This document shows, one piece after another, positions 4,244 through 33,397 of a DNA stretch of 64,000 bases. The notes beneath the pieces were generated by a model that was given only the letters and a program-made list of their open reading frames with translations, searched no databases and was not told where the DNA came from. How positions within the stretch are numbered: position 1 is the stretch's first letter; every line of letters starts with the position of its first letter. The position numbers and the translations under genes are program-made. The stretch is from NCBI GenBank assembly GCA_002964805.2, contig PUDQ02000045.1, positions 62,001 through 126,000 on the forward strand, in the 5' to 3' direction. The DNA comes from Trametes villosa. Taxonomy: Eukaryota > Basidiomycota > Agaricomycetes > Polyporales > Polyporaceae.

Positions 4244-4369
4244 CAGGACCGTTTGCAGCCAGCAGTCAAATATCATGTACTATTATGACCCATTATCAGA
4301 ACCTCTTCATACCGAGAGTACTTCCCATCATGGACAATGATGCCCTATCATAGGTGTCTCGGCCTCAGC

Positions 4370-5847: not shown

Positions 5848-5849
5848 GT

Positions 5850-5860: not shown

Positions 5861-5877
5861 CACCTCGAGTCTCCGTC

Positions 5878-11575: not shown

Positions 11576-11693
11576 AGTCACGCCACGCCACAGTTCGCCT
11601 CAAGCCCTTTCTATTAGGGACGATACAGGCTACATTAGAGACATTGTAAGCTATATGTCCGTGGTTTAGTCCGACACCTCCGACCTCCGACGC

Positions 11694-11923
11694 CTACTCC
11701 GCCGCCTTGCCCTTGTCCGTCGTCTCCGCACCCTCACCCTCCTTCTCCGCTCCCTCACCCTCCTTCTCCGCTCCCTCACCCTCCTTCTCCGCGCTTTTGG
11801 GCTTCTCCGCGGGCTTGTCCGCTGCGTCGGCCGGCTTGTCCGCCACGTCGGCGGGCTTCTCCGCCTCCTCCGCGGGCTTGTCCGCCTCCTCCGCAGGCTT
11901 GTCCGCGCCCTCCCACCATCTGG
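11694..11923 (-). pseudogene. 3' part of the gypsy-1 antisense gene
   Basis: On the minus strand this is the C-terminal continuation of the gene whose first exons are at 30005-31336; the 18-kb element lies between. The peptide is Lys/Pro/Ala/Glu-rich, with repeated ADKPAEE-like units and three repeats of AEKEGEG (the matching DNA repeat is CTCCCTCACCCTCCTTCTCCG). The stop lies 118 bp from the pol stop, so pol and this gene converge. The part before the insertion has the same ADKPAE repeats, which supports the join. Confidence 0.75.
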
Positions 11924-12232
11924 TGTGGAAATGAAACTTCAACAACCGGTTGTTAGCCCGGCCTGCGATACAAATAAAGCCGGTTGTACACCTGAAGTTT
12001 CAGGTCCCCCCGGTGGCCTCCGGGGGTGCCTCTTGGGCCCCCTTCGGCTTCTCAGCTGCCTTCCTAAAGCGGTAGGTTGGCCTCCTTTCCTCCGCAACGC
12101 CCGCCAGGATGTCCGAAAGCAGCTCGGCACCTCCCGTCGGTGGCGCATAGCGTCCCAAAACGGTAGACCGCCTCCTCCGGGCGCTCCGCAGCCTCCCAAA
12201 GCGGCCCGTAGCCTCGCGCCGGCGCTTAACAC
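11924..12232 (+). repeat. Left terminal inverted repeat of the 18-kb element
   Basis: 309 bp, nearly identical in inverse to 29692-30000. It contains a 14-bp perfect palindrome AACAACCGGTTGTT (11941-11954) close to the tip and a second palindrome with 7-bp arms, ACCTGAA..TTCAGGT (11990-12005). Both are candidate transposase-binding sites. The inner boundary is sharp after CGCTTAACAC. Confidence 0.93.
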
Positions 12233-12315
12233 GACTGTATGTTGCCGCATTTTCTGACATACCCCACAGACGCATTGCAGGCAGCGTACAGATACAATAA
12301 ATAGTTATAAGTATA

Positions 12316-13353
12316 CTAGTCCAAGTTATCTGGCTCCTCCTGAACGCCTCCTGCAGCATCCGAGGGCCTATAGCCCTCGGAGCTAGTCAGAACATAGCCT
12401 GCAGGTGGCTCCCATTCAGGACCTGTACCCGCGTTAGCAGCCTGTGCGTTCTCTATACACACCGCTCGGAATACGATGCGCATCCCCCTCCTGATCTGGG
12501 CCTGATCATACGCGTACGAAACCAAGCCCTCCTGCAGGCGGCTGTCCACTCCAGCGCGTGAACCTGCGCGTCGCATCCACTCCTCCTCCTCGTGGCGCAT
12601 CGTCACGAGTACTCGACGCATCTCCTCAGGGAGGATCTTTGTTTCTTCCTCCCATCGCATGCAGCGCGCGCGAGCCTTGAGCCACTCAATACGAAGCGAT
12701 TCCACATGGGCCGCCTTCCCTGTGGCATCAGACGCGTTCCAGATCCAGGAGACCGTTCGGTGTCCATCACCTGGCCTGCTCGCGTTCTCGCCCTGCGTGC
12801 TCTTCCGCGAGTTCTTGTTCTTCTTCGGCTCGTCGACGTCAATCGCCACGACACCGCGCACGTCCTCATCCCGCAGAACGCGTAGGATCTCCTCCCATGT
12901 ACCGGGACCGTCGAGTGCCAGTTTGGCGCGGCGTGCGCAGCGGTACTTCTCGATCGCACGATCGCGTCGCGCCGCCTGTGCGTTGAGTTCTGCCTGTGCG
13001 CGCGTGTTCGGACCTTGATGCCGGACGTTCGCTTGCTTGTAGCGATGCAGGTGGTGGAGCGTGTGCAGCTTATTCCGTAGGTCCTGCAGCGCGTCTCGAC
13101 ACTGCGCCTCGCGAAGTCGAGACTCGAGCGCGAGGAGCTCAGAGCTGCAGACCATCTCGCGGTGGGGTGCGGAGATGTCGGATGGGAGGCCGAGCTGGAT
13201 GCTCTCGACAAGCTCCGTGTCCATCTGCGCTTGGGGGAGTTGTGCGAGGAGTGGGAGGGCGGCGGGCATGTACGTGGCTTGGAGGGTGCGGAATTTCTGG
13301 ATCCGTGTGCGGAGGGCGGTGCGGCGTTCAAACAGAAGGTGTCGTGGAGACGA
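12316..13353 (-). pseudogene. KDZ transposase, C-terminal fragment
   Basis: The frame runs from an apparent splice acceptor at 13353 to the stop at 12316. The peptide has the C-terminal signature seen in Kyakuja-Dileera-Zisupton transposases of mushrooms: a YMP-containing helix, LPSDISAPHREM, a long helical segment, GANTRA-like GPNTRAQAEL, LRVLRDEDVRGVV, TVSWIW, MRWEEETKILPEEMRRVL and GVDSRLQEGLVSYAYDQA. No catalytic residues lie in this part. It is separated from the N-terminal fragment (20055-21790) by the MULE. The two fragments appear to overlap slightly in homology (RRDGALRK against ERRTALRT), so they may be parts of one gene or of two copies. Confidence 0.8.
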
Positions 13354-13711
13354 CTAGACACCCTATTATTTTCCGCTTTTTCCCACCTTTTTACCTACAT
13401 ATTCACGAGCATAAGCACAGTACAAGTACGAAGCGCCTGAACCCGGTCAGGTGACAGGACATGTGATCGCGTCCATCCCCAGTATGTAGCTCCTTGATCT
13501 CTGAGCGGCCTTGTTCCCATTATGGCGGTTCTATTGTTCCTTGTTCTATTGTTCCTTGTTCGTACACGCTATTGTTCTCTGCTCTATTGTTCCACATTTA
13601 GCCACGCTATTGTTCCTTTGTTCTATTGTTCCTTTGTTCTTTGTTTAGGCACGCTATTGTTCACCCTAGATAGGAAGCTATTGTTCTCTCCAGTATATAG
13701 GTAGGGTAGAT
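13354..13711. repeat. CTATTGTTC repeat cluster
   Basis: Between 13531 and 13690 the motif CTATTGTTC (C/T) recurs about eight times at irregular 9-35-bp spacing, with CCTTGTT between copies. No coding frame is convincing. It lies between the C-terminal KDZ fragment and the MULE's left end, so it could be the remnant of an intron or a sub-terminal repeat. The rest of this interval shows nothing recognisable. The last nine bases (13703-13711, AGGGTAGAT) are the left copy of the MULE target duplication. Confidence 0.6.
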
Positions 13712-13725
13712 GGGGACCCACCAAA

Positions 13726-13935
13726 ATGGTGGAAGTGGAAGTCCGCTCCGGTGAGTCGGAGTTCCACTCGCCCTACTTCCACTTCCACTCGCCCTACTTC
13801 CACTTCCACTCGCCCTACTTCCACTTCCACTCGCCACCCCACTTCCACTCTCTGCCTCACTTCCACTCACCGGCCCACTTCCACTTGTTGATCCACTTCC
13901 ACTTCCAGTCTCAGCCACTGACAGTTCCACTCGGT
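13726..13935. repeat. Left sub-terminal repeat array of the MULE
   Basis: Several tandem copies of CTCGCCCTACTTCCACTTCCA and shorter CACTTCCACT variants are present, with one inverted copy (GGTGGAAGTGGAAGTCCG) at the outer edge. The array at the other end (19617-19738) uses the same CACTTCCACTGG core. Mirrored arrays like this are typical of transposase-binding zones. Confidence 0.8.
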
Positions 13936-14439
13936 CATAATTCACGTGCCTACCCGACCCGATGATGCAACTCCCTCGGCGCTTCCTCAACATGTAAGCG
14001 CCCAATTTGAACACTCTGCGCGAACTCGTCCATAACATCCGGGGCATAAATTAGTAAGGATAGATGCATGTACAGTAGTGTTCTATGTATGCTATAGTAA
14101 TATGAACTGCAGAGAAATTGTACCTCGGAGTGGTTTTGGGCATTCTATGAGAGTTACGAGTCAAGGGTACCAAGCGCCCATGTAGACCCTTCGTGTTGAG
14201 TCAAGTTCCTCGAGACCCCGAAAGACACTCAGGCCGCCCAGGGGGATAACAGATGTTTAGGGAGGTATAGCAAAGATCACACACTGTTAGCCAAGTTTCT
14301 GAGCGACAGATTAAGTGGTACATGAGATCTCACACCAGCCCGAGCATAGGATAGTGTAATGTCATATATTAGAACCCTGCGGAAATGTCTTGTAGTCTAA
14401 CCTCTCCGAAACTCAGAAATTCCTTCCTGTAATACCCTC

Positions 14440-17400
14440 TCATTCCCTCGCATAGGGGGGCCTGCTGGAGGGGGAGGCTTCTCCGTGGCTAGCACAACCA
14501 GCTGCAGAGTTATGACCCAGATCGTACATCTGGTTCGCAGCTGTGCAGCTTGTCGTGTTCCCCGGCTGCCAGCCAACCGGCGTTCGAGACGGCATTTCAG
14601 GCGCCCAGGAGGTGCTTGGGGCGGCGTACTGTGTAGGTGTCGAAGTCGATGGGTAGGGGAATAGAGAAGAGGGTGCGGAGGATGAACCTGCAGAGGGCGG
14701 CGCGTGCCCCGGGCTAATAGTTGGTGTCACCCTGTGCATGCGCGCGCCGAAGTTCGAGGGAGATGGCATGATGTGTCCGAGCGTGGATGACGCGTATCCG
14801 AGCGTGGATGACGCGTTGCTGCTGAGCCCCCTGGGCGCGTTGTAAGCTTGCGTCGGCGCGAAGGCCCCCGAGGACGGTGGGTGCGCATACGACGATGCTG
14901 CAGCCTGCGCCGCCGCTGACCTATGAGACGTCGGCGCAGTGGAGAACGCTGTAAGGAACGCTTGCGCGTTGGACCTCGAGGAGGAGGCCGCCGGGTGTGT
15001 GCTTGCATCCGTGCGGGTTTGCGCAGGTGCGAACTGCTGCGAGGCGGACCGCATGGACTGCGCCTGTGGCATACCTGCCTGCACAAATCGTGGCAAGGAG
15101 GACGCGTGCGTACTTGATGGCGTAAACACCAAGGACGGTATACGCATTCCTGGCTGCGGGAGGGGGGACGCGTGCATGCCCGGCGATGCAAATCCAGCGG
15201 GCGCGCGCAGGAGCGTACTAGGCTGGGGTAGAGCCTGTGACGATGGCGGGGTGTGTGCAGACATGGCCGGTGCGCTGTGTGTAGTCGGTGCGGAGGATGC
15301 GGGCACGTTCCAGCCTGACCAGACGGATCCAGATTGCGGTGCAGGGGGGAGCATGCGCGCGGGCGCGGGTGCCGGTGCGAGCGTATTCACGGCGGATGTG
15401 GGTGTGCTTCCGGAGGTGTGAAGGAATGACGGCCCCGGAGCAGCAGAGAGGATAGCAGGGGGAGTAGATGAGGTAGAGGCGAGAGGAATGGTAGTGGGCG
15501 CAGCATCAGTAGCAAGATGAATCTGCTGATGCTTACCCTTCCCATGTCCTGCCCGTGGCTTTGCGACCTTCTCGTCAGCTTGACGTTTATCCATAGCCTT
15601 TCGATGGCGTGCTTCAGCGCGTGCTGTGTTCCGCTTGAGGCGCTTAGAGGGCGTGTTGTGGAGGTTTGCCCGAACACCGCTGTCTTGAGTTGCGGATACC
15701 CTGGCTTCCTGCTGACGGTCGAGCTTCTCTGCGCTAGAGGGTCCTCAACGATAAGATGCTGTGTCACGCAGAGAAACAGAAGCGTACCTGACGATAGCCT
15801 CAAGGAGGGAAAGCCCGGTATTGGTGTACTTATTCGTCAGCGTGTGCGCACTCTCGTTGATATTGGTGTTGTTTGGAGTGAGCTGCCAATCCGCCGAGGG
15901 AATCTTCGAGAAGTGCCGATTGATTCCTGACCAGAACCATGGCATACCCTTCTTGTTGAGGTACCAGTCTAGACGTAGGGTTGCCGCCATCAGTCAAGGA
16001 GCTATCGACATTAATTTAGGTCAAACCTACCGCGCAGTGCCTTGTTATCTGTGCTCTCACAGAACACCTTGAAGTCGTCCAACTCGGACTCGGTGGTCAG
16101 GTTAGGTAGCTGACGTACGCGGGCCATGATCTCAGGAGAGCATTTGTGCGACAGCTCCATGAGGTTTCTGTTGATATTTGAGGAGGTTAAGTTAGCGATC
16201 AGGACACCGGGTTCCGAGGTGTGCTCGATGCGCGCACCGATCGAAATGGACTCCGCAGATTTTGACGAGGTATTCAACGAGTTTCTGAGGGTCAGTTTCG
16301 GAGACACCGCTGACCTCGGGCTTGTTGCGGCTGAGGAGGAAGTCGCCAAGGCCGTCAATCTGCGCTTGACAGCCATCAACGAGGATAGCGCAGAGGCCCG
16401 TGGGTTCATCGTCCTGAGGCGAAAACGGCTTGAATACTACTGTACTGCCAGTGACCCGATCAACGGCTTCGAAGAACAAGGCCCAGATACGCTGGAAGTC
16501 CTGCCGGCGTTCGCGTGTGCAATAGACGCGACCAACGGTTAGTCCTGCATGTTCACAGGGTCAGTAGAGTTATTGGTAGTGATCTGTGAATGGGCGCACG
16601 CATGTCGACCGTGGGCAACCACAGAACAACCTCCCACTCCTTCCATTCATTCCCGGCGATGCGCTTGTAGGTGTTATCGTGGAGTGTAGCCTTGACAGTA
16701 TGGATCAACTTCGCAAGGCCAGGGACGAACGTGACGATGACAGGCACCCCATCCTTGACATCGAAGTCATGGATGTACCGATCAGCCACTGGTTTAGCCT
16801 GCTCGTCAGCGAAACGTTTATACACGCCTACATACAGATGTCAGTCTAGCTTTCTATGGAGCACATTCAAGGTAACCAGTGATTGCGTACCACCAAATCC
16901 TGTGCCATCGGGCATCTCTCTCTTCTTCACGCTACGCACGACTTTGCGACGCTGATCGTTGTTCATGAGCGCAGGGTCAAAATCCCACGGGTTCTTGCCA
17001 TCGAAGAGCATGGCGGTACTCAGAGCTAACAACGACGCAATATATTTGAGACCTTACAGGAGAGAGTGAGTACAGATTAGAGACGCCTACCGCTATCGAC
17101 CTTCACCACCGTTGCACCGAACGGTCCCACCGCCTCCACTGCAGCTGCGTAACGTTGCCGGCCCTCTGTGGAGACCTTCGACTGTCGTGGCGTGGGGTGG
17201 TTGTGTGCGCGCTCGAAAGCGACTATGGCGCGGCGATCAGAGCGGTCGATGGGATGCCAGATGTTGACCCGGGTCGGACAGGTGCGCCGAACGAGGACAG
17301 CATGTACGACCTTGCCGTCAATGATGTGTGAGTGTGCTATCAAGGAAGCATCAGTATACACGACAGCGAGGGAGCTATCTTAACGCACGGCATTTGTGAG

Positions 17401-19288
17401 CACCTTTGCCTCCACTCCGCACGGGCACCATGTACGTGCAGGTGTAGCCCGTAATCGCTTGGTCAATACCATCTAAACCTGTCTTGAACTCGCCGCGGTG
17501 TTTGAACAGCTCCAGGACGAGTGTCTCGCTGATGTGCAAGGGAATTGGGACGTAGCGGTGCCCGCGCCCATGGTCGGGATCATCTTGTGACCATGCTGAG
17601 CACCCGATGAAGTAGAACTTGCCATCCGGCGATTGCTACCGTGTCGCTCGGTTATGTTGCTAGCAAGACTAAAGCAGAGGTATGAGACGTACCTGGGCTA
17701 GCTTCCGAATAACCGGAGAGCCGTCACACTGATCACCGTCCGGACAGGTGAGACGGCAAGTCTTGTAGCGGGACTGGACCATGTTATAGAAGCTAGATGA
17801 GCGATTTCATTAGTAATACAGTAACATAAAGGGAGCACACACTCACCTGACGGCCTCGGCCTCCTGCGATGAAGACTGCGCTGCGTTCTGCGCCTGTTCA
17901 GCTTCAGCGTGTTCGCGGACCTCCTCAACGCGAGGCTCGTAGCGTTCACAGTCGTCAAAGAGCTTCGGGTCGGCATAGGGGCAGTGATATACACCCTGGC
18001 AGAGATGCGTGGCATGCTGGCAGACGACTCCATCGCCACCGTTGTCAGAGTCGCTGTCTGCAAGAGCCAGCACCTTGACAGTCTTCGAATTGTTGATAGA
18101 GCCGCTGCTTCCCCCACCCCAGGCGTCCTGGTCCTGTATCGCTGTCATTACGAGGTGCTGAACGAAGTTAGAGCCACTCACCTCTGCCTTGATGATCGCC
18201 GCCATCGACATCTCCTCCCCATTCCGTACCCACTTGCCCGGGGCGTCCGCAGAAAGGTCAAGAAGATAGACAACATCTTTACCCTCCCTTGGAACCGTCC
18301 AGCAGGGTTTGGGAATCTCCGTCACGGTGCGCATCTCCTTGGCGTACGTCTGGCGCGTGATTTGAACCTTCTTGTTGTCGACGTCACGGTCGCCATCCGA
18401 GGATGCGTGTTTGCCTTTCTTTGCCTGCCGACGTGTCTGTTTGGCCGGCTTCGGAGACGGTGGAGCATCCCCGCTGAATTCGGGCATCGAAACGGGGGAA
18501 GCTTCGCGTTTGCGCTTGTGTGTCTTGTGCACTGAATGATTCCCACCGTTCGCTTCACGCGGTGTAGCGCGCAGCGCAGCAGCGGGTGGGAGGGATTCAC
18601 CGTGGCGATGAGCCTAGTGAATGATATATGTTAATTAGCTCATTGACGGCCTAGCTGTATGTCAGAAAACACTCACCATCGGCGCAATCGTGCTCTCGAC
18701 GTCCGAGTCACTGTTGTAGGTCGAACCAGAGGCCGAGTCTGACTGAGGCCGAGAGAGACGTAGAGCTGGTAGCGCAGGAAGTGGTACAGCATCATCGAAC
18801 TCCGGAGACGATGCCGGTGTAGGTACGTGGCTTGAGCCAATCCGGGGTGTGGGGGTTGCGAGCGAGCTTGACGCAGCCGAAGTTCTGGAATGGGAAGCGT
18901 GGGGAGTGCGTGACGGGCTGGTGACAGGGAGTTGGGACGATGTGCCCTGGGGACGACGACGCGAGGGCGTGGCCTGGGGAGACTGTGTCGCCGTAAGCCT
19001 AGCCACCTGCTCGGCTTGAAGCTTTCGGGCTAGCCACCCTCGGAAGGCGTCCTTGTTCACCCATTGCAAGGTGTTGTCCAGCGCAAAGAATTCGGGGCAG
19101 GCATCGTAGAGTACTGTGCCTTCGCAACACTGACCAACCATGCAATCAAGTTAGTGATTTGCAGTCAGAGGAATTCCCGACACTGTCACACATACCTCTG
19201 CCCTGTAGCTCAGCAGCTTTTCCTCGCCCGCAACAGCGAGTAGCCTCTCTAGCTCAATATCACCGCCGCTGGCGCTATCGAAGGCCAT
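14440..19288 (-). CDS. MULE transposase, multi-exon
   Basis: The gene reads from ATG at 19288 (MAFDSASGGDIELER) to the stop at 14440 through about a dozen exons with short introns. Seen in order are a Ser/Pro-rich N-terminus with a nuclear-type basic stretch (near 18420), a WRKY-GCM1-like zinc region (Cys residues near 17420, ending FERAHNHP near 17200), and a transposase core with a likely D in LHDNTYKRI (about 16670), a second D in ILVDGCQAQIDGLG (about 16380) and an E in NINESAHT (about 15850). A long Ser/Ala/Pro-rich tail (14440-15594) follows. The zinc region followed by D..D..E is the FAR1/MULE plan. Exon borders were drawn by eye; I saw no nonsense codon in the parts read. Confidence 0.72.
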
Positions 19289-19616
19289 TAGAAGACCTCT
19301 GGATATCTGAGCCGGCGGGGGTCAGGTAGGTGGATATGCGGGCGGAAATTCAAGCAGCAAGTGGCGAGGTAGTGGTGGTTGTGGTTGTTGAGAAGAAACA
19401 TGGTGCAGTGGCTGACGTCGCTTTTTAGATTGTACTGCAGTCAAAGCGTCCTCGGCCTATGTGGCTACGGTCTGCGCGTTCGACACAGGAGGAGGTGGAG
19501 GAGGAGGAGGGCGAGCGCGGCCACATTGAACGCGATCGCGTCTGCACGCGCTAGTCACGTGGGGAGATGCCCGGCGCCTGATTGAGTCCACCGGTAGATG
19601 GAACTCGACACACGCC

Positions 19617-19738
19617 ACTTCCACTTCTACTGAGCACCAGCCCCCACTTCCACTGGCCCAGTTCTACTTCCACTGGCCACCGAGTTCCACTTCCACTGGC
19701 CGAGTTCCACTTCCACTGGCCGAGTTCCACTTCTACTA
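19617..19738. repeat. Right sub-terminal repeat array of the MULE
   Basis: Five to six copies of CCACTTCCACTGGCC(GAGTT) occur in tandem with a period of about 21-23 bp. Together with the array at 13726 it brackets the MULE gene. It is followed by ACTTTAATATATACTC and the 9-bp duplication. Confidence 0.8.
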
Positions 19739-20054
19739 CTTTAATATATACTCAGGGTAGATATCGCCCCTGCTCCCCATCTTGACCTCTTACGTCATTG
19801 GGGACAGGTGAGCACTCCCTGTACTATGCATACCAGGCAATATACTTACGTCATTGGGGACAGTCTTGCGCCTTCGAGCCGACCTCTCCCTTGGCTCCCG
19901 TTGTCCGGGTCCGTAGCACACCGCTGTAGCCCTACCAGACCTCTGTCGGTACGGGGGATGCGCGTCCCTGCTGCGTACTTACCTCCTTATTCCTCATCTT
20001 ACCCGTGTTCGCCGCTGTTCGGGCCCCGCCGCTTGTCTCAGCACGTGTCCAGCC

Positions 20055-21790
20055 TCAGAAGGTTAAGTCCGCCTTCCTGAGCGCTCCGTCCCTCCGCGAC
20101 AAAAGGGGAAGGCGCGAGCCGGGGGCGCCCTTAGCATCCTCCTTCAGACGAATCCTAGTGAGCGTTAGTACAGAGCTCCGGGGATCACCTGTAAAGTAGA
20201 CGTACTGTTGCTCTTCCAGGTCTAAGCCCATGGAGATAAAGCCTAGTATGCTGACCTCATTGCAAGCCGTGAAACCGCGCACTGCACTAGCAGCTTGTTC
20301 CTCCGCCGCCATTTGCTGACGTACTTGCGCCTCAGTCGGTTCTAGACGTTTGCAGTCAGTACGGAGTCCACGACGGAGGCGCATTCGACGCACCGTTGCT
20401 AGCTGCCATGTACGGATCCTTGCGCGTGTTGTCCTTCTCCCACGCAACCACGTCCTTCTTCCAGGCGTTGACATGGCGCCGCTTGAGGGACGCGGTCAAC
20501 GAGGCGAGCAGACTACGGTGCCACGCTGGGCAGCGTACCGCTAACTCCCCCTGTTTAGTCCCTTCCACGCCGTCCGTACTGTGACCACGCCCAGCCCTCT
20601 TCAGCGGCTTGAGAAACCGCCACTGAGCCACCACTTGCATGAACATCTTGTAGCGGTCCAGCAGCTTTGTCGTCCCAGTGTTGTCCGTGAGGCGCTCCAA
20701 CGCTCGATAGTAGTCGAACATCGACACCTTGCCTTGGACGCTTTGCAGGTGATAATGTTCGAGGACGCGATACGTGAATGCGGTGTGTGGCTTGCTGTCG
20801 GTTGCGGGATACAGGCCACGCCGGAGGAGCTGCTGGGCGGGCGTGCCGGCGGGCCCGGCCATGTCGCAGCCACAGAACCGTAGATCGACCTTGTGCTGAC
20901 CGTTGACGTCGATCACGCAGAAGTCGGCGCGCGGGTGTCGCGGCCGCGTACACCTCGTGCTGTCCGCGTGGCCGAGCTGTATGAAGTGGCCGAGGGTGCG
21001 AAGAGAGGTAGGCTCAAAGAAGAGGCCTGACCAGCGCTGCACGCGTGTCGAAGTCAGCATCGAGAGCGCCCATCGAGGCATGAAGCACGCACCTGAATGA
21101 CATGAAATGGCATCTCCTCATGCCGCGCCACCGTGCAAGCCTCACAATACATCTTGGGCGAGCAGTCCAAGCATCGGATCGTTGGCTTGCGAGGCGGAGA
21201 GTCGCCAAGTTCGGGCATCTTGCAGCCAGGACACGTCGTAGAGGCGAAGTCCCCGCGTCCCTCGTACCGGAGGTTCTCGTCCAGATACTCTTGGGCCAGT
21301 GGGATCCACGCCTTCATGGGCTCGTCCTAGCACCAAAAAAAGCGGTCAGAGAGAATTTTTTCGTCGTCGAGGTGGGCGGGCTTACAGAGCTCTCGTACCG
21401 GGGCGCGTGTATGTGGTCAGACTCTTCGCATACCGCCGGGGACGGCTGGGACTCGTGGTCATGACTTGCTTGGCCAGTCTGGACGTCCGGAGGCGGGGGT
21501 GAGTCCCGTGGTAGGAATGGATCCCAGTCTTCTAGCGTTCCGATGTTGATTCCAGGCTCGAGGTTGGAGGTCGGTAACGCTGGGCTCGCGGACACGGATG
21601 GGCTTGAGAGCGGAAAGGCCTCCCGGAAGACGCGGCGTAGGTCGGAGGAAACATTGTCGACATGTAGGATAGGAGTGGTAGAGGTCGAGGGGATGTGCGC
21701 GGCGTTGGCCTCAGTCGCGGCGATGTCGAACTCGCAGTGGAAGTCGTCGTCGCAGGTAGGCCGTGGCCGCTTCGCAGCTCTACGGCGCAT
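20055..21790 (-). pseudogene. KDZ transposase, N-terminal fragment without catalytic core
   Basis: The start is MRRRAAKRPRP at 21790, and at least two introns are visible. Exon 2 carries a CxC2-like cysteine cluster (CPGC..CLDC..CEAC, followed by ARHEEMPFHVIQ). Exon 3 has the conserved opening of KDZ transposases (FEPTSLRTLGHFIQLGH; CRVID-like FCVIDVNGQHKVDLRFCGC; FDYYRALERLTDN; ELAVRCPAW). Then, instead of the roughly 300-residue DDE region, it jumps straight to the post-catalytic helices (LKRRHVNAWKKDVVAWEKD, later GFISMGLDLEEQQ). The catalytic core is therefore missing and the protein could not cut DNA by itself. It shares a 183-bp divergent promoter with the TET/JBP gene. Confidence 0.82.
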
Positions 21791-21973
21791 ATCGCCGCCC
21801 GGGAGTGCTTCTTTCACCAGAAATGGGTCGTGCGAGCACCAGGATTCCACCCTCAGCGCATCACATTCGGCACGGGCGCTACTACCTCTACGGTACGTCC
21901 CCTCCCCCTCCCCCTTCCCCTGCGCCAGCTCACCACCCATTTAACAACCCCTCCTCGCCAGCCACGCAAGAGC
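21791..21973. promoter_or_regulatory. Divergent promoter between KDZ and TET/JBP genes
   Basis: 183 bp separates the two divergent start codons. It contains a pyrimidine-rich run (CCCCCTCCCCCTTCCCCTG near 21900-21925) but no clear TATA box. Bidirectional control of a transposase and a DNA dioxygenase is inferred from position only. Confidence 0.5.
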
Positions 21974-23921
21974 ATGTCCCTCGCTCCGCCCCTCACAGCC
22001 ACAGCCAGAGCTCCCGGTGAGTTACTACTATATATTGCCTACCGCACACGTCGGGTCCACCTAGCGTGGCTTCAACTTTGGAACCCGGACAGCGGCATCC
22101 GGCGTGCGCGGTTGGTTTCACTTGCTTCGGCCTGTAGCTGACCATTCATTCCCCAGGATACCTCAATGCCCTCATTGATGCACCGGCCTTTTGTCAGGTA
22201 GGCACGCGCACCATCGGCACCGCGCGCCTCTACTAACCCCAGCCCGCTACACTACAGACACGAGGAGGCCGGGCGTTTTTGCCCTGGTCCACTGACTTCG
22301 GCACACCACTACATGCCCCGCAGGACTTCTCGCTTCAAGCCGGCAGCACTCAAGCCACGGGGGTGCTCTCGGACATGCTCGACACGATGGAGAAGTGCGC
22401 CCCCGCGCCCCCACCCGCATTGCCACCGACGATATCGACCCAGGCACGCGCCGATCGACCAGCCACCTCGCGCGCCCGGTACCCCGTTCGCCACGAGCGC
22501 CGTCAACTGCGAACGTGCAGCGCTGTCCACGCGCGCCCCGCCGAAGGTAGCGTCCGCGACGAAGGAGCTGTACCAGGCGAAGCAGCGCGCGAAGCGACGG
22601 CGTCAGACTGCGCGGGAACGCGCTGCAAAGGCGTCCGGCGTGGTTGACGCGATTGGGGCCAGCCTGAAGGCCGTCGCTGTCAAGCGGCGGGCGCAAGCGA
22701 AGGCCATCCGTCTCAATGAGCTGCGGGGCCTCGCGGGCGCCCTGGCGTCGACCACCACGCCGCTGTCTTTCAGGGACCACAGGCTGCCGGCTTCAAAGTC
22801 CGGGTACATCGCCTGGCGCGTCAAAGCAAGCGCGTCGGACAGCCGAGCTGTGTCGCTACAAGAGCTGCTGGAGGACGGGTTTGAGCACGTCCGTTGGGAT
22901 GGCCGGTAAGCGTTCAAGTGTGCGTTGCTATTAGGGCTCTGTAGAACTAACGTGCTGCATCAAGCACGCCTCGCCCGCTCCTCGACCGCGACGGCACAGT
23001 CTTCGCTGTGCTGGCGGGCTGTCCCAATGATGCAACCTGGGATGACGCCGCACGCGAGGCGGCATCATTGTTGGAGGGCGCGCGCCGCGCGCGCGAGGCG
23101 TTCGGCACGCAAGGCATTCACCGCCGCGGAGCGTACCCGTGCATCACGACGGGTATATCCTACGGCGGCGGGCAGACGGTATGCTACTACGGACTGTGCT
23201 GCACGCGCGCCCCTCTAACCAGACCTCCAGTATCCGAAGAACTTTTCCAACCCCGAGCCGGTCCAGCGCATCGCTGATGATCTTGTCGCTAGCCTGTGCA
23301 TCGAGCACCTTGCGCACTTTGGTAGTAGTAAGTACGCTCCCACCACTGACTAGCGTACTGCACGTACTGAAGCTCGCTCAAGGCGTGCTTCGGCTCTTTG
23401 CCCCGCGTCTGCACGGGTATTACAGGCGCACGCTGGACGGCTTGTGCGCGCGCGACAAAGACCTCGCCCCGCTCTTCCCGCGCAGCGCCTTTGCGGCCTG
23501 CACGTTCAACCTCGGTCCCAAAACCGTGACATACGTGCATACGGATGGCTTCAATCTGCCCTGGGGCTGGTGCGCGGTCACGGCACTTGGCGACTTCGAT
23601 CCTACAAAGGGCGGACATCTCGTCCTATGGGATCTGAAGATGGTCATCGAGTTCCCGCCAGGGGCGACTATCCTCATCCCATCGGCTGTCCTCCGCCATT
23701 CGACCACCCAGCTGCACGACGGTGAGACTCGCTACTCATTCACGCAGTACTTTGCCGGCGGACTCTTCCGCTGGGTAGACTATGGATACCGCCCCAAGAA
23801 GGTCTTCGACGAACTGCAGAGGCTTGAGGGATGGTCGCGGCCAGCCGGTCCGGCCTGGGGGCAGGATGGCCTGCAGATGTTGAGTAAGTGGGCGGAATTT
23901 GCAGACTTATACCAACAGTAG
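21974..23921 (+). CDS. TET/JBP-family 2-oxoglutarate/Fe(II) dioxygenase
   Basis: Proposed exons are 21974-22016, 22157-22197, 22258-22905, 22965-23178, 23231-23327 and 23383-23921. The family oxidises 5-methylcytosine or thymine in DNA; the basidiomycete branch is expanded and often linked to KDZ transposons. Visible family marks are GISYGGGQ (about 23155-23175), the Fe-binding HTD motif (His-x-Asp, 23538-23546), GGHLVLWDLKMVIEFPPGATILIPSAVLRHS with the distal His, and ETRYSFTQY with the 2-oxoglutarate-binding Arg, then GGLFRWVDYGY. A basic N-terminal region (KQRAKRRRQTARERAAK) suggests nuclear targeting. One problem is that exon 3 switches frame between about 22430 and 22500, which needs a small unseen intron or is a 1-nt lesion. 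All catalytic residues I can recognise are present. Confidence 0.85.
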
Positions 23922-24161
23922 ACATCTCGCATAGGTACTACCTTAGATCCACCCTAATGAATTCGCGCGCGCGCTGAGGCCAGATGCGTGGTGAGACGCG
24001 TCTCGTCTGGGCGCGGTAACATCTACCCGGCGCGCGGACGCAGTCTCCCTTCATCGATCGAGGAGTGAGACGCGTCTCACCATCCAGTAGCGCCTGCGCG
24101 CCGTCCAGTCGCGCCGCCATCCCGCTGTGTTAGCACGCCCCTGTCTCCTCTTGCTTGTCTC
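23922..24161. promoter_or_regulatory. Intergenic region with two GAGACGCGTCTC palindromes
   Basis: GTGAGACGCGTCTCGT begins at 23991, and the 16-bp perfect palindrome GTGAGACGCGTCTCAC occupies 24065-24080. The two sites are 74 bp apart, about seven helical turns, and each has an ACGCGT (MCB-like) core. Nothing coding is evident. They lie downstream of the TET/JBP gene and upstream of the small gene at 24162. Confidence 0.6.
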
Positions 24162-24902
24162 TTGCCACCCCACGAAGCTCGCGCCCGCTGCTTTTCATCA
24201 CTCGCACACCTGGAACAAGGCGTCGACATGCAGGACCCTGTGCAGGATGCTCAGGCTGAGCGGGCAGCTCGAGCCAAACTCCTTCGCAAGGCTCGCAATT
24301 TGCGCCATCGCGAGAAACTCAAGCAGTCAGTACCGGGCTGCAGTCCGCCGCTTTCGATTCGTTCTCTAATCTACCGACTTGCACAGGCGGAAGGCCAGCC
24401 GGGACGCCCCTACCGCGGCGGCTGCACTCCAAGTCGCAGTTCAACCGATCGTGGCCAGGTGAGCGTCGCACTTCACTACAGCGTCAATGGCCCCCTGCTG
24501 AGCTGAGACTAACACAGGCAGAACGCCATCCTGATTCCACGCATGCCAAACACGGTGCTGACCTCCGCCCTCGCCGTGCTCAATTCGCGCCTCCGCAACT
24601 GGGGATTTTGATATGATAGAGATGGGCACATTGCCGCAGTAGACGAGGACCTTTGAAGTGCGCAGGAGTCGGCGGAGGCGTACGAGGGCTGGGTAGGGCG
24701 TTGGAATAGCTGGGTAATGGAAGGTGATCAGATTCTAGACGACATGGAGGTTTTGCTGGGAGATGGCATGCTGGACAGTCTTGGACATCAGGATGCCCTG
24801 TCTATGTGGAGGTCCATGACCTCTGTTGTCTTTCAGGCGCAGTGGATGATCGCTGTTGCAGAAGCCCGCGCCGATAGCACAGAGACTGTAAAAGCAATGT
24901 AA
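24162..24902 (+). pseudogene. Small decayed gene, unknown product
   Basis: Exon 1 (start at 24162 or ATG 24228, MQDPVQDAQAERAARAKLLRKAR) is helical and basic. Two introns with good GT..AG ends follow, leading to a segment ending in LNSRLRNWGF. After a stop near 24611 the sequence still looks coding (DGHIAAVDEDL, then ESAEAYEGWVGRWNSWVMEGDQILDDMEVLLGDG to 24902) but is broken by a frameshift and a TGA. I do not recognise the family. The pattern suggests a former nuclear, coiled-coil protein. Confidence 0.45.
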
Positions 24903-25007
24903 CAGATCATACAATTGAAACGTTCCAGAGCACTACAGCGCGTCGAGCTACACGACATACAAGGACTTGCTACCAGGCCGGCGAGATATACAGCGTGGTG
25001 GCCGGGT

Positions 25008-26149
25008 CTACAGCTCGCTGCCGCTGTACGCGTACAGTTGCTCGTCCTCATCGTCCTCACCGTCCTCGTCGATCTCGACGACGGGGACTCCCACCTCCCC
25101 CTCCATGTAGCTCTCGACGAAGAACCGCGCCGCCTGGGCTCGCGTCGGGAACGGGACGATCTTCATGCCGGGGTGCCATCCTGCATTGAGGAGGGCTGTC
25201 GGTCTGTTTCAATTAGCTAAGCATCCGATAAGCAGGAGCATGTGGACGTACCTATCGTGATACACGCCGGGGCGATCACCGCGCACCACAACGTACATCG
25301 TGTTCCCCGGGCGCACAACGATCTGCTCGAGCCCGCGCGCCGAGCCTGTGCCCGCGCAGTTGCCGCCCTTGGCAGCGCGCGAAGTGGACTTTGAGGCAGC
25401 GCTCGTCGACGAGGCGACGCTAACGCCCGAGGAGCGAGTACGGTGGCGAGGAGCGCGCGTGTTCGAGGCCGCTGACTTGGAGGGCGAGCGGGCTGTATCT
25501 CCTCGAGGGCGGCCCGAGATTGGGGTGCTTGACCGAGAGTTGCTATCGGCGTCGAGGGCGCTCGAGACACTGGATTCCCTGGAGATTGAGGATGCGGGCG
25601 AGGCCGGGGTTGGAGAGCGCCTGCGGGTGGTGCGCCTGCGTCGCGGGGCAGCGCCCTCCTCTGCTGCCTCTTGCGGGAGGCGGATAGGGATAGCGGGGGG
25701 AGGAGAGAGGATGGGGACGGTCTGTTCGTACGTGGCATCGTCCGGTGCGCTTGTATCACGCTTTTCCCCAGTCAAGCCTGGCGTCGCGTGTGCCGGACGA
25801 GGCGCGGGAGGGACCCAGTTGGGGAGCTTGGACGGGCCCTCAGCCCATGCAGTGCGCGCATCTTCGAGGCGGCGGAAAGACTTGTGGATACCGCCCGGAA
25901 AAGCTGACACCATTGCGCTTGTGAGGCCCCTACCGGACATTTAGTACACGTCGTGGCAATGATTCGAGACACTCACCAGTTGTTAAAGAGCCCGATGGCT
26001 CGTCCTACCCACACAACATAGGTCTTGCCCTTGGGGCAGCGGGCGCCGATCGGGACGATGAAGCCGTTGGCATCGAGCTTCGGGGTGTCGCCCAGGGACC
26101 CAGTGAGCTGGTCCCAGTCTTGGATGAGAACCGGGCTGACCCTTCCCAT
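25008..26149 (-). CDS. Protein with two RNase H1-N-terminal-like (Cauli_VI) domains
   Basis: The start is MGRVSPVLIQDW at 26149, with introns at about 25921-25980 and 25206-25256. The first domain is TYVVWVGRAIGLFNNW followed across the intron by FPGGIHKSFRRLEDARTAW. The second is TMYVVVRGDRPGVYHD followed across the intron by PTALLNAGWHPGMKIVPFPT and ARFFVESYMEGE. Both fit the compact fold found at the N-terminus of eukaryotic RNase H1 and in caulimovirus protein VI, which binds RNA/DNA hybrids or double-stranded RNA. Between them is a Ser/Arg-rich linker of about 150 residues. No catalytic RNase H domain is present. It is divergent to the gene at 26380. Confidence 0.65.
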
Positions 26150-26379
26150 GAGAGCAAGGCGAAAGAGCAGGTAGCTGCAGCGAAGGCAGGAAGCAGGGAG
26201 AGTTGGTGGTGGTGGGGAGATAAGGAACAGCGCATCCCGGCGGCTCAGGCTCGCGCATCGATCAAGTTCGGTTTGCTCACGTGATCCCCTTGAGACTTGC
26301 GCGCGTGGCTCCGGTTTCGACGCGCCGCACCTCCTCCTCCACCTCCCGTCGTGTCGCTTGCTGCTGAAAGCCCTCCGAC

Positions 26380-29300
26380 ATGGCGCCCCCTGTGAACTTC
26401 GATGCGACCGACATCACCGCTAATTGCGCGCCGAATACGAGCTCCCAAGCCACACGCGACCGGCGGAAGAAGAGACACCAAAAGGAGAAGAAGGGAGGCA
26501 AGGCCGGGAACCAGGGCAACTTCCACGGCGCCCGGAAGGCGTTGTTGGACGAATACTTCCCGGAATTCGCGGAGATCAAGGGGTCGGGGCGCACAGTTAC
26601 GAACAAGTACTGGGACAAGCTCTTCGCGGCATACTGGGCCAAATTCCCCTGGTACCTCCCCCTCAACAAGGAGCCCGAAGATCTTCACGAGTATCCGGCG
26701 CCCAAATCTAGCCCTGAGGTGGACGAGGAGCATGGCAAGGTTGTTGCCAAGACACAGCAGGTAAGTAGCGCATTCCTATTTCTGCAGGCATGTCCTGACG
26801 TCTTACACTTCCTATAGCGCATCAAGAGCCACTTGGGCTACCGCTACACCCAAACACAGCTCAAGGAGCAGAACCCCTGGCGCCCCCTCCTTGCTTGTCT
26901 CAAGACCCGAGCGAAGGCCCTTCCGCCGCCGCGCCGCGTGGCAGGTGTTCATGAATCAGAACCCGGACACGGTCAATGAGCTTTTTGAGGAACGGTGGGC
27001 GGGCAAGGACCTCCCGAAGGAGGAGCATCTCAATGCTCGCGGTGAGATCGCGCGCGAGCTGTTCGCGCAGGAGCCGAAGGAGGTACAAGACGCGCTCGAG
27101 GTAGAGGCCGATCGAACGCACCAGGAGGATCTCACCGCGTATCAAACGGCTGCCCTGCCTGCAGCGGAGGAGACAGACGAAGATTCGCTCAACCGGTATG
27201 TACACGTCTCCGATGGATCCTCTCTCAAGCTCACCTCATACAGTGCGCGCCAGGACTTTGCGACAGTCGTGCAGCCCCTCCTAGAGCTTCTACAGGAGTA
27301 CACGGGCCTCTACTGCACGCTCATCGCCGGAGTACCGCTCCCCGCAGGCCCACAGGAGTTCTTCCTCAAAGTGTGAGTACGCTCATCCGGGAGGAGGCGG
27401 CTTGCTCATCTGTGTGATCTAGCGTCACGAGCGGCCGGACGGCTGGCCCCGTGCCCCAGCCATGGCACGTCTACGAGAAGGAACACTTCTCCACAGATGT
27501 GATGCACTCCTTCACGCGCTTCCTGATGAAAACGCCAGGTACGTCGAACCCAGCTCGTGTTGTATTGCATCACTAACACTCCGCATAGAGTACATTCAAC
27601 GAACGAACGGCGCGGGATCGTCCAACGCGGCAGGGCAGAACAGTCCCTCCCCGAGCGATTCGGGTCTGGCAGCACTCTCGTCCCTCGGCCTGAAGATCTC
27701 TCCTCTCCCAAGCCCATCCGCCGGCGCAGGGGCACGTAGTGGAGCCGCACGGCGAAAGGGGAAGCAGCCGGCGCGCGCATCGCTTCGCAGCCAGAAGGGC
27801 GAGGAGCCGGACGCGACCTCGAGCTCAGAGAGTTCGGATGACGAGGAAGATGAAGAGGATGACGAAGACGATAGCGACGACGTCTCGGAGGAGGAGGAGG
27901 AGGAGGAGGAGGAGGAGGAGGAGGAGGAGGAAGAGGAGGAAGGAGACGAGCTCGCCGGGGAGGAGGCGTCGGGAAAGCCACGTGCTCCTACCCCCACCAT
28001 GGAGGAGCTTGGGTTTAGGGGCGCGATGGCTGCGAGGCTGAACGCGCTCCCGGCTCGACAGCGCCGCGCGCAAATGTTCCGGTGGAGTTTCGCCTCGGAC
28101 TGGGAGCGCGAAGCCGAGAACCTCCGCGCTCAGAACACCGACGCCATGTCCGAAATCTCTCGCAAGTACGGTGTTCCCTTCAAGAAGCCAGAGCAGAAGA
28201 AGCGAAGGGCGAAGAAGCATGCGCCCGACGCGTCTACCGCATCACAGCCCCCAAGGCGGTCAGGTCGCCTTCAGGCACGAGGGGATGATGGTGCCTCTGT
28301 GCCCACATCCCCTGGAGCTGCGACGTCTAAGCCGCCGACGCCCCCGCCTGCAACGTCGAGCACGCCCGCCGCATCGAACACGCCCACCGCGACGAACTCC
28401 CCCGCCGCGATCAACACGCCCGCCGCAACGAACACGCCCGCCACGTCAGACCCCGCTGCGGCGTCGAACACGCCCGGGGCTACCAGCGCCCCCGCCGCGT
28501 CGAACGGCGCCCCTGCCGCGTCGACCACGCCCGAGGCCATCAACGCACCCGTGACATCGAACGCGCCCGCGGCGTCGAACGCGCCCGCGGCGTCGAACGC
28601 ACCCGGCGCGTCAGACGCCTCCGCGCCGTCGAACACGCTTGCAGCGTCAAAGGCGCCCGCGCCCACCGCGCCCGCACCCACAGCGTCCACCACGGCTGAT
28701 CCGCCGCGCCCGCGCCCGCGCGCCCCTCAAACGACGTCTGCCACGCCTGCCCCCACAACACTCTCTGCGCCCGCGCCCGCGCCTGCAACTTCCACTACGC
28801 CCGCTCGCCCAGCTCCTGCAACCGTCTCGACGTGGCCATCGACATGAGCGGATGGCCATCGTGGATCAAGGAGGCGTTCAAGCGCCTGGACAGAGAAGAC
28901 TACGGGGAGGACTTCCGTCGCGCTGTCGCCTGGTGGACGGTGTACGAACGCACGCACGAGTGGGAAACCACGGTGAGTACGCTCTCGTGTAGGCTAATAT
29001 TATTCTTTTTTGCCGATCTACTTGCTCAGACAAAGAGCCTCCCGACCAAGGCCCGCCCGCCTGCGATTGCGGAGTGGGTCAAGTACGGGCGGAAGCTGGA
29101 CAAGAACCCAAAGATACCCGACGACGAGGTCTACGCACGCGCCTGGAACGCGTGGTGGCTGGAGCTACAGCCGGATTGGCGGAAGGACAAGCATGGCGGG
29201 ACTCTCCGTGTGGGCTCGGGACCATGGGGGGCACTCGATCACCCCGGGAAGAACGGCGTATTCATGGCGCTCCTCTCCCTCATGTGGTGGAAAGACGCTG

Positions 29301-29509
29301 CCATCGCTACCGAGGATGAGTGCCAGGAGGCCGTTCTTGACATTGGATGGGTGATCTGGCAGATGGTGTCCAGTGGCGCCCGGGTTGGAGGGTAAGTCTT
29401 CAGTACACCTTCTGCTTCTTCCGCCATATTCACATACTAATTGGCCTGCAGAAAGTGTCCAGCAGATCCTGAGCAGCCCACCAGCAAGGCCAAGAAAATG
29501 CGTCACTAG
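26380..29509 (+). CDS. HMG-like nuclear protein with acidic and Ala/Pro-rich repeats
   Basis: The start is MAPPVNFDATDIT at 26380 and the TAG is at 29507. Introns of about 48-60 nt are visible (for example 26761-26818, 27196-27242, 27375-27421, 29391-29450). The layout follows the gene at 909: an N-terminal helical segment (DEYFPEF, TNKYWDKLFAAYW), an HMG-like region (WQVFMNQNPDTVNELF to EADRTHQEDL), a LIAGVPLP segment, then a poly-Glu run (27890-27950), an Ala/Thr/Pro minisatellite (28330-28700) and a conserved C-terminal block (GWPSWIKEAFKRLDRED; WWLELQPDW; GIFMALLSLMWWKD-like GVFMALLSLMWW). A frame change near 26935 looks like a 1-nt lesion, and another near 28735-28815 can be solved by a 74-80-nt intron. 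It may be functional or lightly decayed. Confidence 0.65.
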
Positions 29510-29691
29510 TAGTACTACCTATGTTGAACTGTCCCTCCCTGTATGCGTGCACCGTCTCCCCCTGTACAATTTTGTTATGTGCTGAATATACCTATTGTGT
29601 GCTTCATTGACGTCCTGGTGATTGCCCCCTACCTGCCTGCAGCTTGATTAGAGAATAAACAACTTATTGTGGATCATCGCTTGCTGCCCAA

Positions 29692-30000
29692 GTGTTAAGC
29701 GCCGGCGCGAGGCTACGGGCCGCTTTGGGAGGCTGCGGAGCGCCCGGAGGAGGCGGTCTACCGTTTTGGGACGCTATGCGCCACCGACGGGAGGTGCCGA
29801 GCTGCTTTCGGACATCCTGGCGGGCGTTGCGGAGGAAAGGAGGCCAACCTACCGCTTTAGGAAGGCAGCCGAGAAGCCGAAGGGGGCCCAAGAGGCACCC
29901 CCGGAGGCCACCGGGGGAACCTGAAACTTCAGGTGTACAGCCGGCTTTATTTGTATCGCGGGCCGGGCTAACAACCGGTTGTTGAAGTTTCATTCCCACA
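29692..30000 (-). repeat. Right terminal inverted repeat of the 18-kb element
   Basis: Inverse copy of 11924-12232, with the palindrome AACAACCGGTTGTT at 29970-29983. Differences from the left repeat are few. The 182 bp between the stop of the preceding gene and this repeat hold nothing else I can identify. Confidence 0.93.
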
Positions 30001-30004
30001 CCAG

Positions 30005-31336
30005 CAGCTGGCCCTCCGCGGGCTTGTCCGCGCCCTCCGCCGTCGTGCCCAACGGACCTGCGCCCGCGGTCTGCCGGGCGCCGGACCTCGTCATCACCCG
30101 CTCCAGCCGGACCTCCTCCAGCACCCGCTCCCAGTCCTTCTCGTTCGAGTCGAACTCGTCGGAGTCCATCGGAATGTACTCCGACTCCTCGTCATCGGGG
30201 TCGGAGTCGGGTGCGCGGTGGCGGCGACGGATCATCGCGCGGTATACTGCCGTGCAGTACCCCACGATGACCTCCTCACGGTCCTCGATGGCCTCGCACC
30301 TCGCCTCCCGCTCCACCGCCAACTCATGGCGGAGCAGCTGCACCTCTCCGAGGAGAGCGTGCATCAGCTCCACCCCGCTGAGCGGACCTGGCCCCGCGGA
30401 CCAGATGTTTGCGGCCGCCAGCGCCGCGGTCGGGTTGCTGGGCACCATCGTGAAGAATGGCACCCCCGTCCCGGGCGCTGGGTGAACGGGCCCCGCTGGT
30501 CCGCCGCCTCCGCCACCTCCGGCTGCTCCAACTCCGACACCTTCGCCCACTCCCCCGACGGCGACCCCACTTGCGCGACTCGGCCCCGCCTGGGGTTGAG
30601 CCGGCGCGGGCTTGCGGGGCGTCGACTCCGGCGACGAGTCAACCTTGCGCTTCTTCTTCGGCCGGTCGTCCTCCTCCGACTCCACGTCCGCCTTGGCGGG
30701 CTTCTTCCCCGCCTTTTTGTCGGCCCTTGCCGCCGCCTGCTCCGCCTTCTTCGCCGCCACACGGTCGGCGTTGTCCCGCTCGTGCTGGCGGAGTCGGTTG
30801 GTGAGCTCCGGGGGCATGCCGCCACGAGCCCCGACGCACGGTTTCTTGTGGTGCTGGCACTCCGTGCAGGAGCTCGTCTTCGGGCCTTGCCAGAAAAGGC
30901 ATTCCACGTCGTTGTTGCCGCAGTGGTGGCAGGGGATCCTGTAATAAGGCCGTTAGCCACTCCCTTACTCCGCCAACCCCGCCACGTCCGACTTACTCCG
31001 GCTGGATGAGCTCGCCATCCTCATCCTCGTCGTCAACGTCGATCGGCTTGCGCTTTTCTCCGCGCGGCTGGCCCTACGTCGGGGTTAGCTCCGACATCCG
31101 AACCCCGAACCCCGCCGCGTACTCACCTCGAGCGCGACGTTCCGCGCCACCACCCGATCCCGCTCGATCTGCGCCAACCTCTCCTCCTCGGCCTCCCTCT
31201 CCGCCCGCGCCTTCTCCTCCGCCGCTTTTCGCGCCTTCGCGGCTGCCCGCTCCGCCTTGCTCTGCGCGAAGAACTCCAACACGCGGTCCTCGTAGTCCGA
31301 CTCCGTCTCGTCGGGCTTGCGTTTGGGGGCGTCCAT
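30005..31336 (-). pseudogene. 5' part of the gypsy-1 antisense gene: Zn(II)2Cys6-type protein
   Basis: Exons are 31127-31336 (MDAPKRKPDETESDYEDR, then a Lys/Glu/Ala coiled coil), 30997-31073 (acidic, DVDDEDEDGE) and 30938 down to the insertion point near 30005. Exon 3 opens with six cysteines spaced C-x2-C-x6-C-x10-C-x2-C-x6-C, which is exactly the Zn(II)2Cys6 (Gal4-type) spacing, although the first loop (GNNDVE) lacks the usual basic residues. A Lys-rich nuclear stretch (DDRPKKKRKV), a Gly/Pro-rich part and an acidic tail follow. The gene runs antisense to pol, lies between pol and the 3' LTR, and is interrupted by the 18-kb element. It resumes at 11923. Confidence 0.75.
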
Positions 31337-32288: not shown

Positions 32289-32752
32289 ATGTGGGAATCA
32301 GAGCTCGAGGAGGGCGGACGCAGGCGGTTTGCCTTGAGACGGGGCGAACGAAGGGTGTCTCGTTGCAAACGCGTGAGGTACAATCGAGTAATCTACGCGG
32401 TATATATACGAGCACCGGGGCGGAATGCAAACGGAAAGACGCCGGGCCGAGCGTAGCCGCTCATACCGAACGGCGAAATACAACAACTCGCGCTACAGCA
32501 ATTCCAGGAGGAAACTATATCCTGCCCACACCCACTGGTGTGGTGCGAGTTTTTTCGAGTTGAGAGTGGTTAAGGAAGAAAAGGCAAAGTCTCACCTCAC
32601 CCCTGCGCTCAAGATTATATACTACCCCCGAACCCCGATCTCCGATTCCGACCCTGCGTACCTCCGTCCTCTCTTTTTTTCACGCGCTAAACTTTAACGG
32701 ACAGGTCACGTGCTCTTAGGCCCTCATGGGTTCGGGCCTAGTGGGGAGGCAC
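32289..32752. other. gypsy-1 region before the 3' LTR, with polypurine tract
   Basis: No convincing ORF. On the minus strand a TATA-like AGTATATAATC near 32605-32620 could serve the antisense gene; on the plus strand GGTATATATACG lies near 32400. The last bases before the LTR (AGTGGGGAGGCAC) act as the polypurine tract for plus-strand priming. Confidence 0.55.
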
Positions 32753-33397
32753 TGTTACATCCCATGCGCCACCTCCGAAGGTTCGGACCTCATGTCCGCC
32801 CAGGTCCGCTCGTGTCCGCCCATGTCCGCCGTACGTCCGCTCTAGTCCGATACTTACTTACCATGTCCGCCATGTCCGCCTATGTCTGCTCATGTCCGCT
32901 CATGTCCGATACTTACTCCGCTCCTTATCTACGGTATTGACTCGGAAGGACGAAGACAATAGCTTATTGTATTCGGACTTCCCTCTTTCGGACTTCCTTC
33001 CTTTTACGTCGCTCCTTATTGTTTCGCCAGAACAATTAGATTACTTCTATAAATACTCGCCTGGATGTAGACTATTCCTCAGTTCGTATATCTCGTTGTA
33101 AAGCGTCTTATCCGCACTCAATCTACCTCCTCCGCATTCCCTACCTCTTGTCCGATCTCCTCCGCTCGTCCACCTCCGACCTCCGACCTCCGCCCGACCC
33201 TTGTCCGAAGTCAAGGACACGACTCAGACTCGAGGTGTTGCTAATAGCCTCGCCGAAGTCCTTACCTTGTGCGCTCGTCCCGAGTCCAGGTCCGACCTGA
33301 CCCCCGACTCCGACTTCCGATCCCCGACCTCCGATCTCCGAGGTCCGACCCCGAAGTCCGACCCCGACTCGGTCCCCCGATCCGCACGGTCGTAACA
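32753..33397 (+). repeat. gypsy-1 3' LTR
   Basis: 645 bp, identical to 5203-5847 except for one visible base (33236). The right flank CCGCC equals the left flank of the 5' LTR, which shows that the two LTRs belong to one insertion although 27 kb lies between them. Confidence 0.92.

Follow-up and report, generated by a model that had tools for sequence, protein, structure and literature searches.

A probable five-gene, TET-bearing Kyakuja transposon with 319-bp inverted arms in Trametes villosa, present as a defective copy inside a young chromovirus

The element described here carries a TET/JBP-like dioxygenase gene and lies in contig PUDQ02000045.1 of Trametes villosa, in a window of 64,000 nucleotides (positions 62,001 to 126,000 of the contig), to which the coordinates below refer unless another locus is named. 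Its inverted arms were aligned at 11892-12232 and 29692-30032, with 95% identity over 341 nt. Lined up with four other complete copies in the genome (C5, C3, C16 and C93), the ends had to be set at 11914 and 30010, which gives an element of 18,097 bp with a perfect 7-bp target-site duplication on either side (GCCCTCC, at 11907-11913 and, by comparison with the other copies, at 30011-30017). The near-perfect 309-bp repeats reported in an earlier note on this DNA are real, with five differences between the left and right inner 309 bp, but the true arms measure 319 bp, their ends lying 10 bp further out. The left arm spans 11914-12232, with the outer end CACCATCTGG of the CA..TG type, and the right arm 29692-30010, with the outer end CAGCTGCTGG, as delimited by arm alignment and by comparison with the other copies. 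Three positions of the outermost 10 bp are unlike between both ends.

A comparative gene model, built across the copies with a score that favoured conserved frames, placed five genes (A to E) between the arms. Gene A (26380-29395, forward strand, 3' end approximate) encodes a predicted large nuclear-type protein with an HMG-box-like domain, an acidic middle and a conserved C-terminal domain. Pfam and PDB sequence searches with this protein gave no relevant match. In structure comparisons with a relative, Foldseek returned nothing significant and a second look with VIA returned HMG boxes. The HMG-like nuclear protein noted earlier has moderate structural support from a relative, and the window copy of the gene is frameshifted by an 8-bp deletion at about 26925/26926, where the HMG-like part begins. 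Three further genera were found to have relatives of A. Gene B (25008-26149, reverse strand; exons 26149-25977, 25929-25252 and 25203-25008) encodes two RNase H1 N-terminal (RNA:DNA hybrid-binding) domains; its segment 25929-25252 was taken as one exon on the continuous open reading frame (ORF) at 25209-25940, whereas the comparative model splits it. The two hybrid-binding domains proposed from the sequence were confirmed on the C5 copy, where PF01693 matched two stretches (1e-14). The window exon matched at 2.7e-4 (21.5 bits against a cut-off of 21), and all six database relatives, from Lenzites, Earliella, Trametes and Ganoderma, contain PF01693. Window gene B has no stop, with 278 of 285 codons mapped. 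Gene C (24228-24902, forward strand), a fifth, small gene, had been overlooked when the cargo was counted as four genes. Its frame is uncertain in the window copy, which has two stops relative to the C3 model, as does the C5 copy.

Gene D (22551-23921, forward strand), the TET/JBP-like gene, is open over 399 codons in the window copy and all its introns are GT-AG; its exons run from 22551 (or upstream) to 22905, then 22965-23178, 23231-23327 and 23383-23921. The protein keeps the HxD motif (HTD), the distal His and the Arg of the iron/2-oxoglutarate site, which are invariant or nearly invariant columns among 23 aligned sequences. In Pfam, the window protein matched solely PF13640 (E 0.0036, under its cut-off) and the C5 protein matched nothing. 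PF12851 matched four of the 23 aligned members (best 1.6e-5) and neither the window nor the C5 protein; a genome search with PF12851 gave no match, but its control gave none either. PDB sequence searches with D found no relevant match. The fold of a relative, P0018 (41% identical to the C5 protein), had CcTET, NgTET1, TET2 and CMD1 clearly as top matches, and a viral library search gave 29 matches at E <= 0.001, two of them named 2OGFeDO JBP1/TET (Caudovirales phage, Sylvanvirus). Relatives of D were widespread in Agaricomycetes in the database search. The TET/JBP identity draws its support from relatives, one of which was compared by fold; Pfam does not show it for the window protein. Counted from the first iron-binding His (His326 in the numbering of Kojima 2025, PMC12730594) and not by structure-based residue alignment, window D has Asn at +5 and Cys at +11. 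Each of these residues recurs in 117 of 118 relatives (two of 120 were unreadable by the pattern), the two occupying the places of Gly331 and Asp337 in CcTET of Coprinopsis cinerea, which is 13% identical. The part of Kojima 2025 drawn on here gives Gly/Ser and Asp at these places for AG-type TETs; window D was examined for this pair and carries neither.

Gene E, on the reverse strand, is the KDZ transposase of the element. Its 5' and middle part (20102-21940) contains a CxC2 zinc domain at 20674-21003 (PF18803, 4.2e-40), and its 3' part (12256-13339, ends approximate) has no Pfam match of its own and matches the C5, C3, C16 and C93 copies. A deletion of about 1.47 kb at 20521/20522, the missing stretch being C5 14680-16151, takes out all three catalytic motifs. 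These motifs are kept in C5, C3, C16 and C93, where E also scores above the PF18758 cut-off, whereas the KDZ core is deleted in the window copy. The remainder of window E has one stop; single stops relative to the models also occur in A of C5, A of C93 and E of C16. What had been described as a KDZ remnant does have its CxC2 domain and lacks its catalytic part, but it is the element's own transposase. The window element is a defective copy, and the proposal of a working cassette is not supported for it, its E and A being broken. Gene E is also split by a 6.8-kb insertion (13340-20101) with ends TGTCG..CGACA, not present in the other four complete elements; the earlier note had missed it and described everything as inserted in one piece. 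The insertion is flanked by an imperfect 5-bp duplication, CCTTT/CCTTC, as read by eye, and none of six ORFs searched within it matched a Pfam family at E <= 0.01. Its last 357 bp (19745-20101) recur at seven other genome places with 95-99% identity, and two of these lie 2.4 kb from each other in direct orientation. This repeat resembles a long terminal repeat (LTR), but the opposite end of the insertion is without it.

When the whole 46.7-Mb genome was searched with the 309-bp arm, 13 matches came up: five inverted pairs (ten matches), a single left arm belonging to an older copy, and two fragments of 37 bp. The five complete elements measure 18.1, 18.0, 26.2, 16.1 and 12.9 kb, the spread arising largely from stretches present in one or two elements only. 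All five have CA..TG termini and perfect 7-bp duplications (GCCCTCC, CATGCAA, GCGGATG, TCTGCGT and GGGTCTG), and by the comparative model the order A-B-C-D-E and the gene orientations are constant among them. Two older partial copies, C93b and C1:5708346, retain the left tip; their right end was looked for and not found. The order A, B, D is common to all seven members of the family, and gene C is present in the older C1 copy. The expectation of finding these genes between such arms at other loci was borne out; arms that never enclose them were not what emerged, since A, B and D lie inside every one of the five complete pairs. Cargo genes away from the arms were found for part of the set: D lies outside the family at 26 of its 33 loci and B stands alone at at least two further places, but A was at no other locus among the matches listed, these counts being lower bounds. 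Around the B-like genes at C3:2264377-2265405 (L026) and C69:30003-30269 (L028), stretches of 10-20 kb contain neither A nor D nor E.

Nesting was frequent around these elements. The 12.9-kb C93 element sits inside the older C93b, between its TET and transposase genes (C93:8414-33000), and a second KDZ element of 10.3 kb, with the 7-bp duplication ATGCACG, is nested in the C3 element (oriented 2608-12887; C3:2978342-2988621). Elements of 2.6 kb with inverted arms of about 910 bp, CA..TG tips and perfect 7-bp duplications at five of five places were seen in the C3, C16 and C1 elements and at C53 (L032/L033 3920-6534) and C110 (L034/L035 14435-17050), the inspection covering Kyakuja loci only. 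They look like non-autonomous Kyakuja-type fold-back elements.

Between the two arms of one element there are 7-13 differences in 319 sites (29 in 318 for C93), while arms of different elements mostly differ by 8-30%; those of the close pair C3/C16 are 3-7% apart, overlapping the within-element range. The outer tips are side-specific in all five complete elements, with CAGCTG.TG. at one end and CACCATCTGG at the opposite end. Because arms are alike within elements and tips stay side-specific, the arms seem to have been homogenised element by element, leaving out the tips, at which the transposase presumably distinguishes the two ends. The tip 14-mer has one genomic site beyond the five elements (C1:629460), against about 0.35 expected by chance by our estimate. 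A 14-bp palindrome noted earlier near the tips does occur in both window arms, but it is kept in only three of the ten arms of the complete elements, and we rejected it as a functional mark.

The element interrupts the antisense gene of a chromovirus (5202-33397) with integrase, RNase H and chromodomain matches, whose LTRs (5202-5847 and 32752-33397; 646 bp, 99.85% identical) differ at one of 646 bases. The antisense gene has at least ten copies in the genome, the window one included. The five others that were inspected all cross the joined flanks without the element, at 81-88% identity in four and 75% in one, the latter with extra changes in a 21-bp repeat. These uninterrupted copies serve as an empty-site comparison and uphold the reported insertion into this gene. 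A chance accumulation of separate insertions between two inverted repeats could point to the one separate insertion inside (13340-20101) and to the nesting common in the family. It is next to impossible beside five colinear copies with perfect duplications outside their arms and the uninterrupted target-gene copies, on which we rejected a chance or composite origin; the same evidence sustains the idea of a single bounded mobile element.

The ratio of nonsynonymous to synonymous substitution rates (dN/dS, by NG86) was computed over ten pairs of copies, with dS up to about 1.7. It was 0.17-0.30 for A, 0.18-0.38 for B, 0.12-0.48 for C, 0.12-0.31 for D and 0.07-0.20 for E. The frame-favouring score of the gene model biases these ratios somewhat downward, though it would hardly yield ratios this low across hundreds of codons, and the values for C (118-190 codons, stops in two copies) are the least sure. 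As far as sequence comparison goes, purifying selection on the genes of the element is shown. The genes A to D might instead be host genes or chance passengers carried without function, as the wide occurrence of D relatives in Agaricomycetes, the A relatives in three further genera and the many D loci would allow. We consider this very improbable, because seven elements agree in the order and orientation of A, B and D, dN/dS is well under 1 even at high dS, and A occurs in the genome within these elements only, among the matches listed. Per-site ratios of replacement to silent changes unique to one copy, for A, B, D and E, were 0.11, 0.17, 0.18 and 0.12 in the window, 0.12, 0.15, 0.15 and 0.06 in C5, and 0.10, 0.14, 0.09 and 0.10 in C16. 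Some relaxation in the window copy is possible, since for B, D and E its ratios exceed those of the other two copies, but its damage seems to date from late in the lineage's history.

The CxC2/KDZ domain, the 7-bp duplications and the CA..TG ends agree with the Kyakuja class. Zisupton and Dileera elements were rejected, as 8-bp duplications are expected for them and 7 bp were found. We think it probable that the window holds a Kyakuja (KDZ) DNA transposon with 319-bp arms and five genes, one of them for a TET-like enzyme, working as follows. The transposase E would recognise the two slightly unlike tips and, cutting with a 7-bp stagger, move the element by cut-and-paste. By oxidising 5-methylcytosine in the element or close to it, D would keep it transcribed, an anti-silencing role that we infer. 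A, through its HMG box, may bend or open DNA at the long arms or promoters, and B may bind RNA:DNA hybrids, perhaps R-loops from the element's own transcription. The window copy, without an active E, would have been moved by the transposase of a relative.

This last step can be examined at the insertion site. The arms differ more (5/309) than the LTRs of the host chromovirus (1/646; Fisher p 0.015), which suggests that the arms were already unlike at landing. Likewise, several lesions in an element lying within a young host suggest that it was already defective and moved in trans. The window copy was thus probably mobilised by a relative's transposase.

The class itself is already known, since TET+ Kyakuja transposons of Agaricomycetes with 7-bp duplications, 5'-CA..TG-3' ends and a proposed escape from silencing were published in 2025 (Kojima 2025, PMC12730594; the comparisons below cover the part of that paper drawn on here). 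A bounded TET-carrying element would therefore not be new in itself. Kyakuja-1_LB, Kyakuja-2_LB and others share with the present element the KDZ transposase, the internal TET/JBP gene, the duplications, the ends and the proposed role. The two L. bicolor families have no inverted repeats in that account, whereas the arms here reach 319 bp, and three additional conserved genes are found here. KDZ1, KDZ2 and KDZ3 of Cryptococcus neoformans are alike in their KDZ transposase with a CxC zinc domain, length of 9-11 kb and long inverted repeats (241, 139 and 169 bp), and their movement has been shown in the laboratory (PMC12810828). They differ in having CxC1 and duplications of 8 bp (KDZ1) or 4-8 bp (KDZ2 and KDZ3), and the portion of that report used here mentions no TET gene. 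TET+ Plavaka elements (PMC12730594) also have a TET gene beside a DDE transposase, but the transposase is unrelated and the duplications are of 2-3 bp. No description of the five-gene A-B-C-D-E layout was found in the literature searched; the Kojima supplementary tables lay outside that search, as did the 2014 KDZ and Coprinopsis TET papers (Iyer et al., Chavez et al.), in which some of it may already stand. Three features seem new: the five-gene set with its conservation, arms of 319 bp, and a TET without AG-type residues that groups with Plavaka-linked TETs and not with those of compact Kyakuja loci.

This grouping came from a survey of the TET loci. The TET exon was found at 33 genome loci, seven in A-B-D elements, four by other KDZ/CxC2 matches (the "compact" loci C110, C1:9.33M, C53 and C88) and 22 others, such as C126, C71, C19, C10:3188867 and C129. 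Of the 26 loci outside the family, 18 have a KDZ/CxC2 or Plavaka match no more than 5 kb away; among the 22 non-KDZ loci, counted by eye, a Plavaka transposase match lies within 5 kb of 14 and within 10 kb of 17. None of A, B, C or long arms was found in the 16-18 kb around each of the four compact loci, whose element ends were not delimited. The window itself holds a second TET/JBP gene (37130-37569; C45:99130-99569), broken by one TGA and a frame break, with a Plavaka match about 2 kb away (39501-39809; C45:101501-101809). The two Plavaka-linked TETs that were read (C129 and the broken window gene) are HxD, while the Plavaka-borne TETs of PMC12730594 are given in the part consulted as PE-type (HxE). 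In an unrooted tree of 13 sequences and 141 columns, the seven A-B-D TETs grouped together (91/91), and with the two Plavaka-linked TETs they were separated from the four compact ones (100/100). This points to TET exchange between transposon superfamilies.

We tentatively propose, as a possibility short of even chances, that a Polyporales Kyakuja lineage built a co-inherited chromatin-opening kit (a TET-like oxidase, an HMG-box protein, a double hybrid-binding protein and a small fifth protein), with its TET taken from or shared with Plavaka, and that transposase-defective copies jump via the proteins of relatives. Several points limit this picture. For the exchange, the tree contained just two Plavaka-linked TETs, of which one comes from a broken gene and the other forms a long branch whose placement is unsure. 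The case for a window copy that was already defective and moved in trans would be weaker if the LTRs had undergone conversion or the element had decayed fast once inserted. Observed/expected CpG is 1.02-1.14 in the element, so that CpG is not depleted, and no CpG decay was seen in the sequence as a trace of methylation. This last point would also suit the main rival reading, in which A, B and D serve transposition or target choice and do not act against silencing, A as a bender for end pairing, B on hybrid intermediates and D marking or reading a modified target. All five genes are constrained alike, an HMG-box protein has been named as a host factor of Sleeping Beauty (in the part of PMC10138897 drawn on here), and the four compact TET loci show neither A nor B in the stretches inspected, so these are not needed for TET action as such. 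A transposition role is nevertheless rather unlikely in our judgement; the oxidised 5-methylcytosine around Coprinopsis Kyakuja transposons, reported in the part of Kojima 2025 used here, fits an epigenetic D.

If the anti-silencing module works as we infer, a single DNA transposon would carry several chromatin-acting proteins, and their joint loss or gain could be tested rather than that of TET alone. The five-gene layout thus makes the idea of a self-protecting, multi-part transposon testable. One genome offers a natural comparison of five-gene Kyakuja elements with KDZ-linked TET loci lacking A, B and C, together with a defective copy in a young retroelement.

Beyond the chromovirus LTRs, the window contains further long direct repeats, at 40751-40975 and 50900-51124 (100% identity), 4370-4669 and 8069-8368 (96%), and 62026-62209 and 63817-64000 (99%), which are perhaps other LTR elements.
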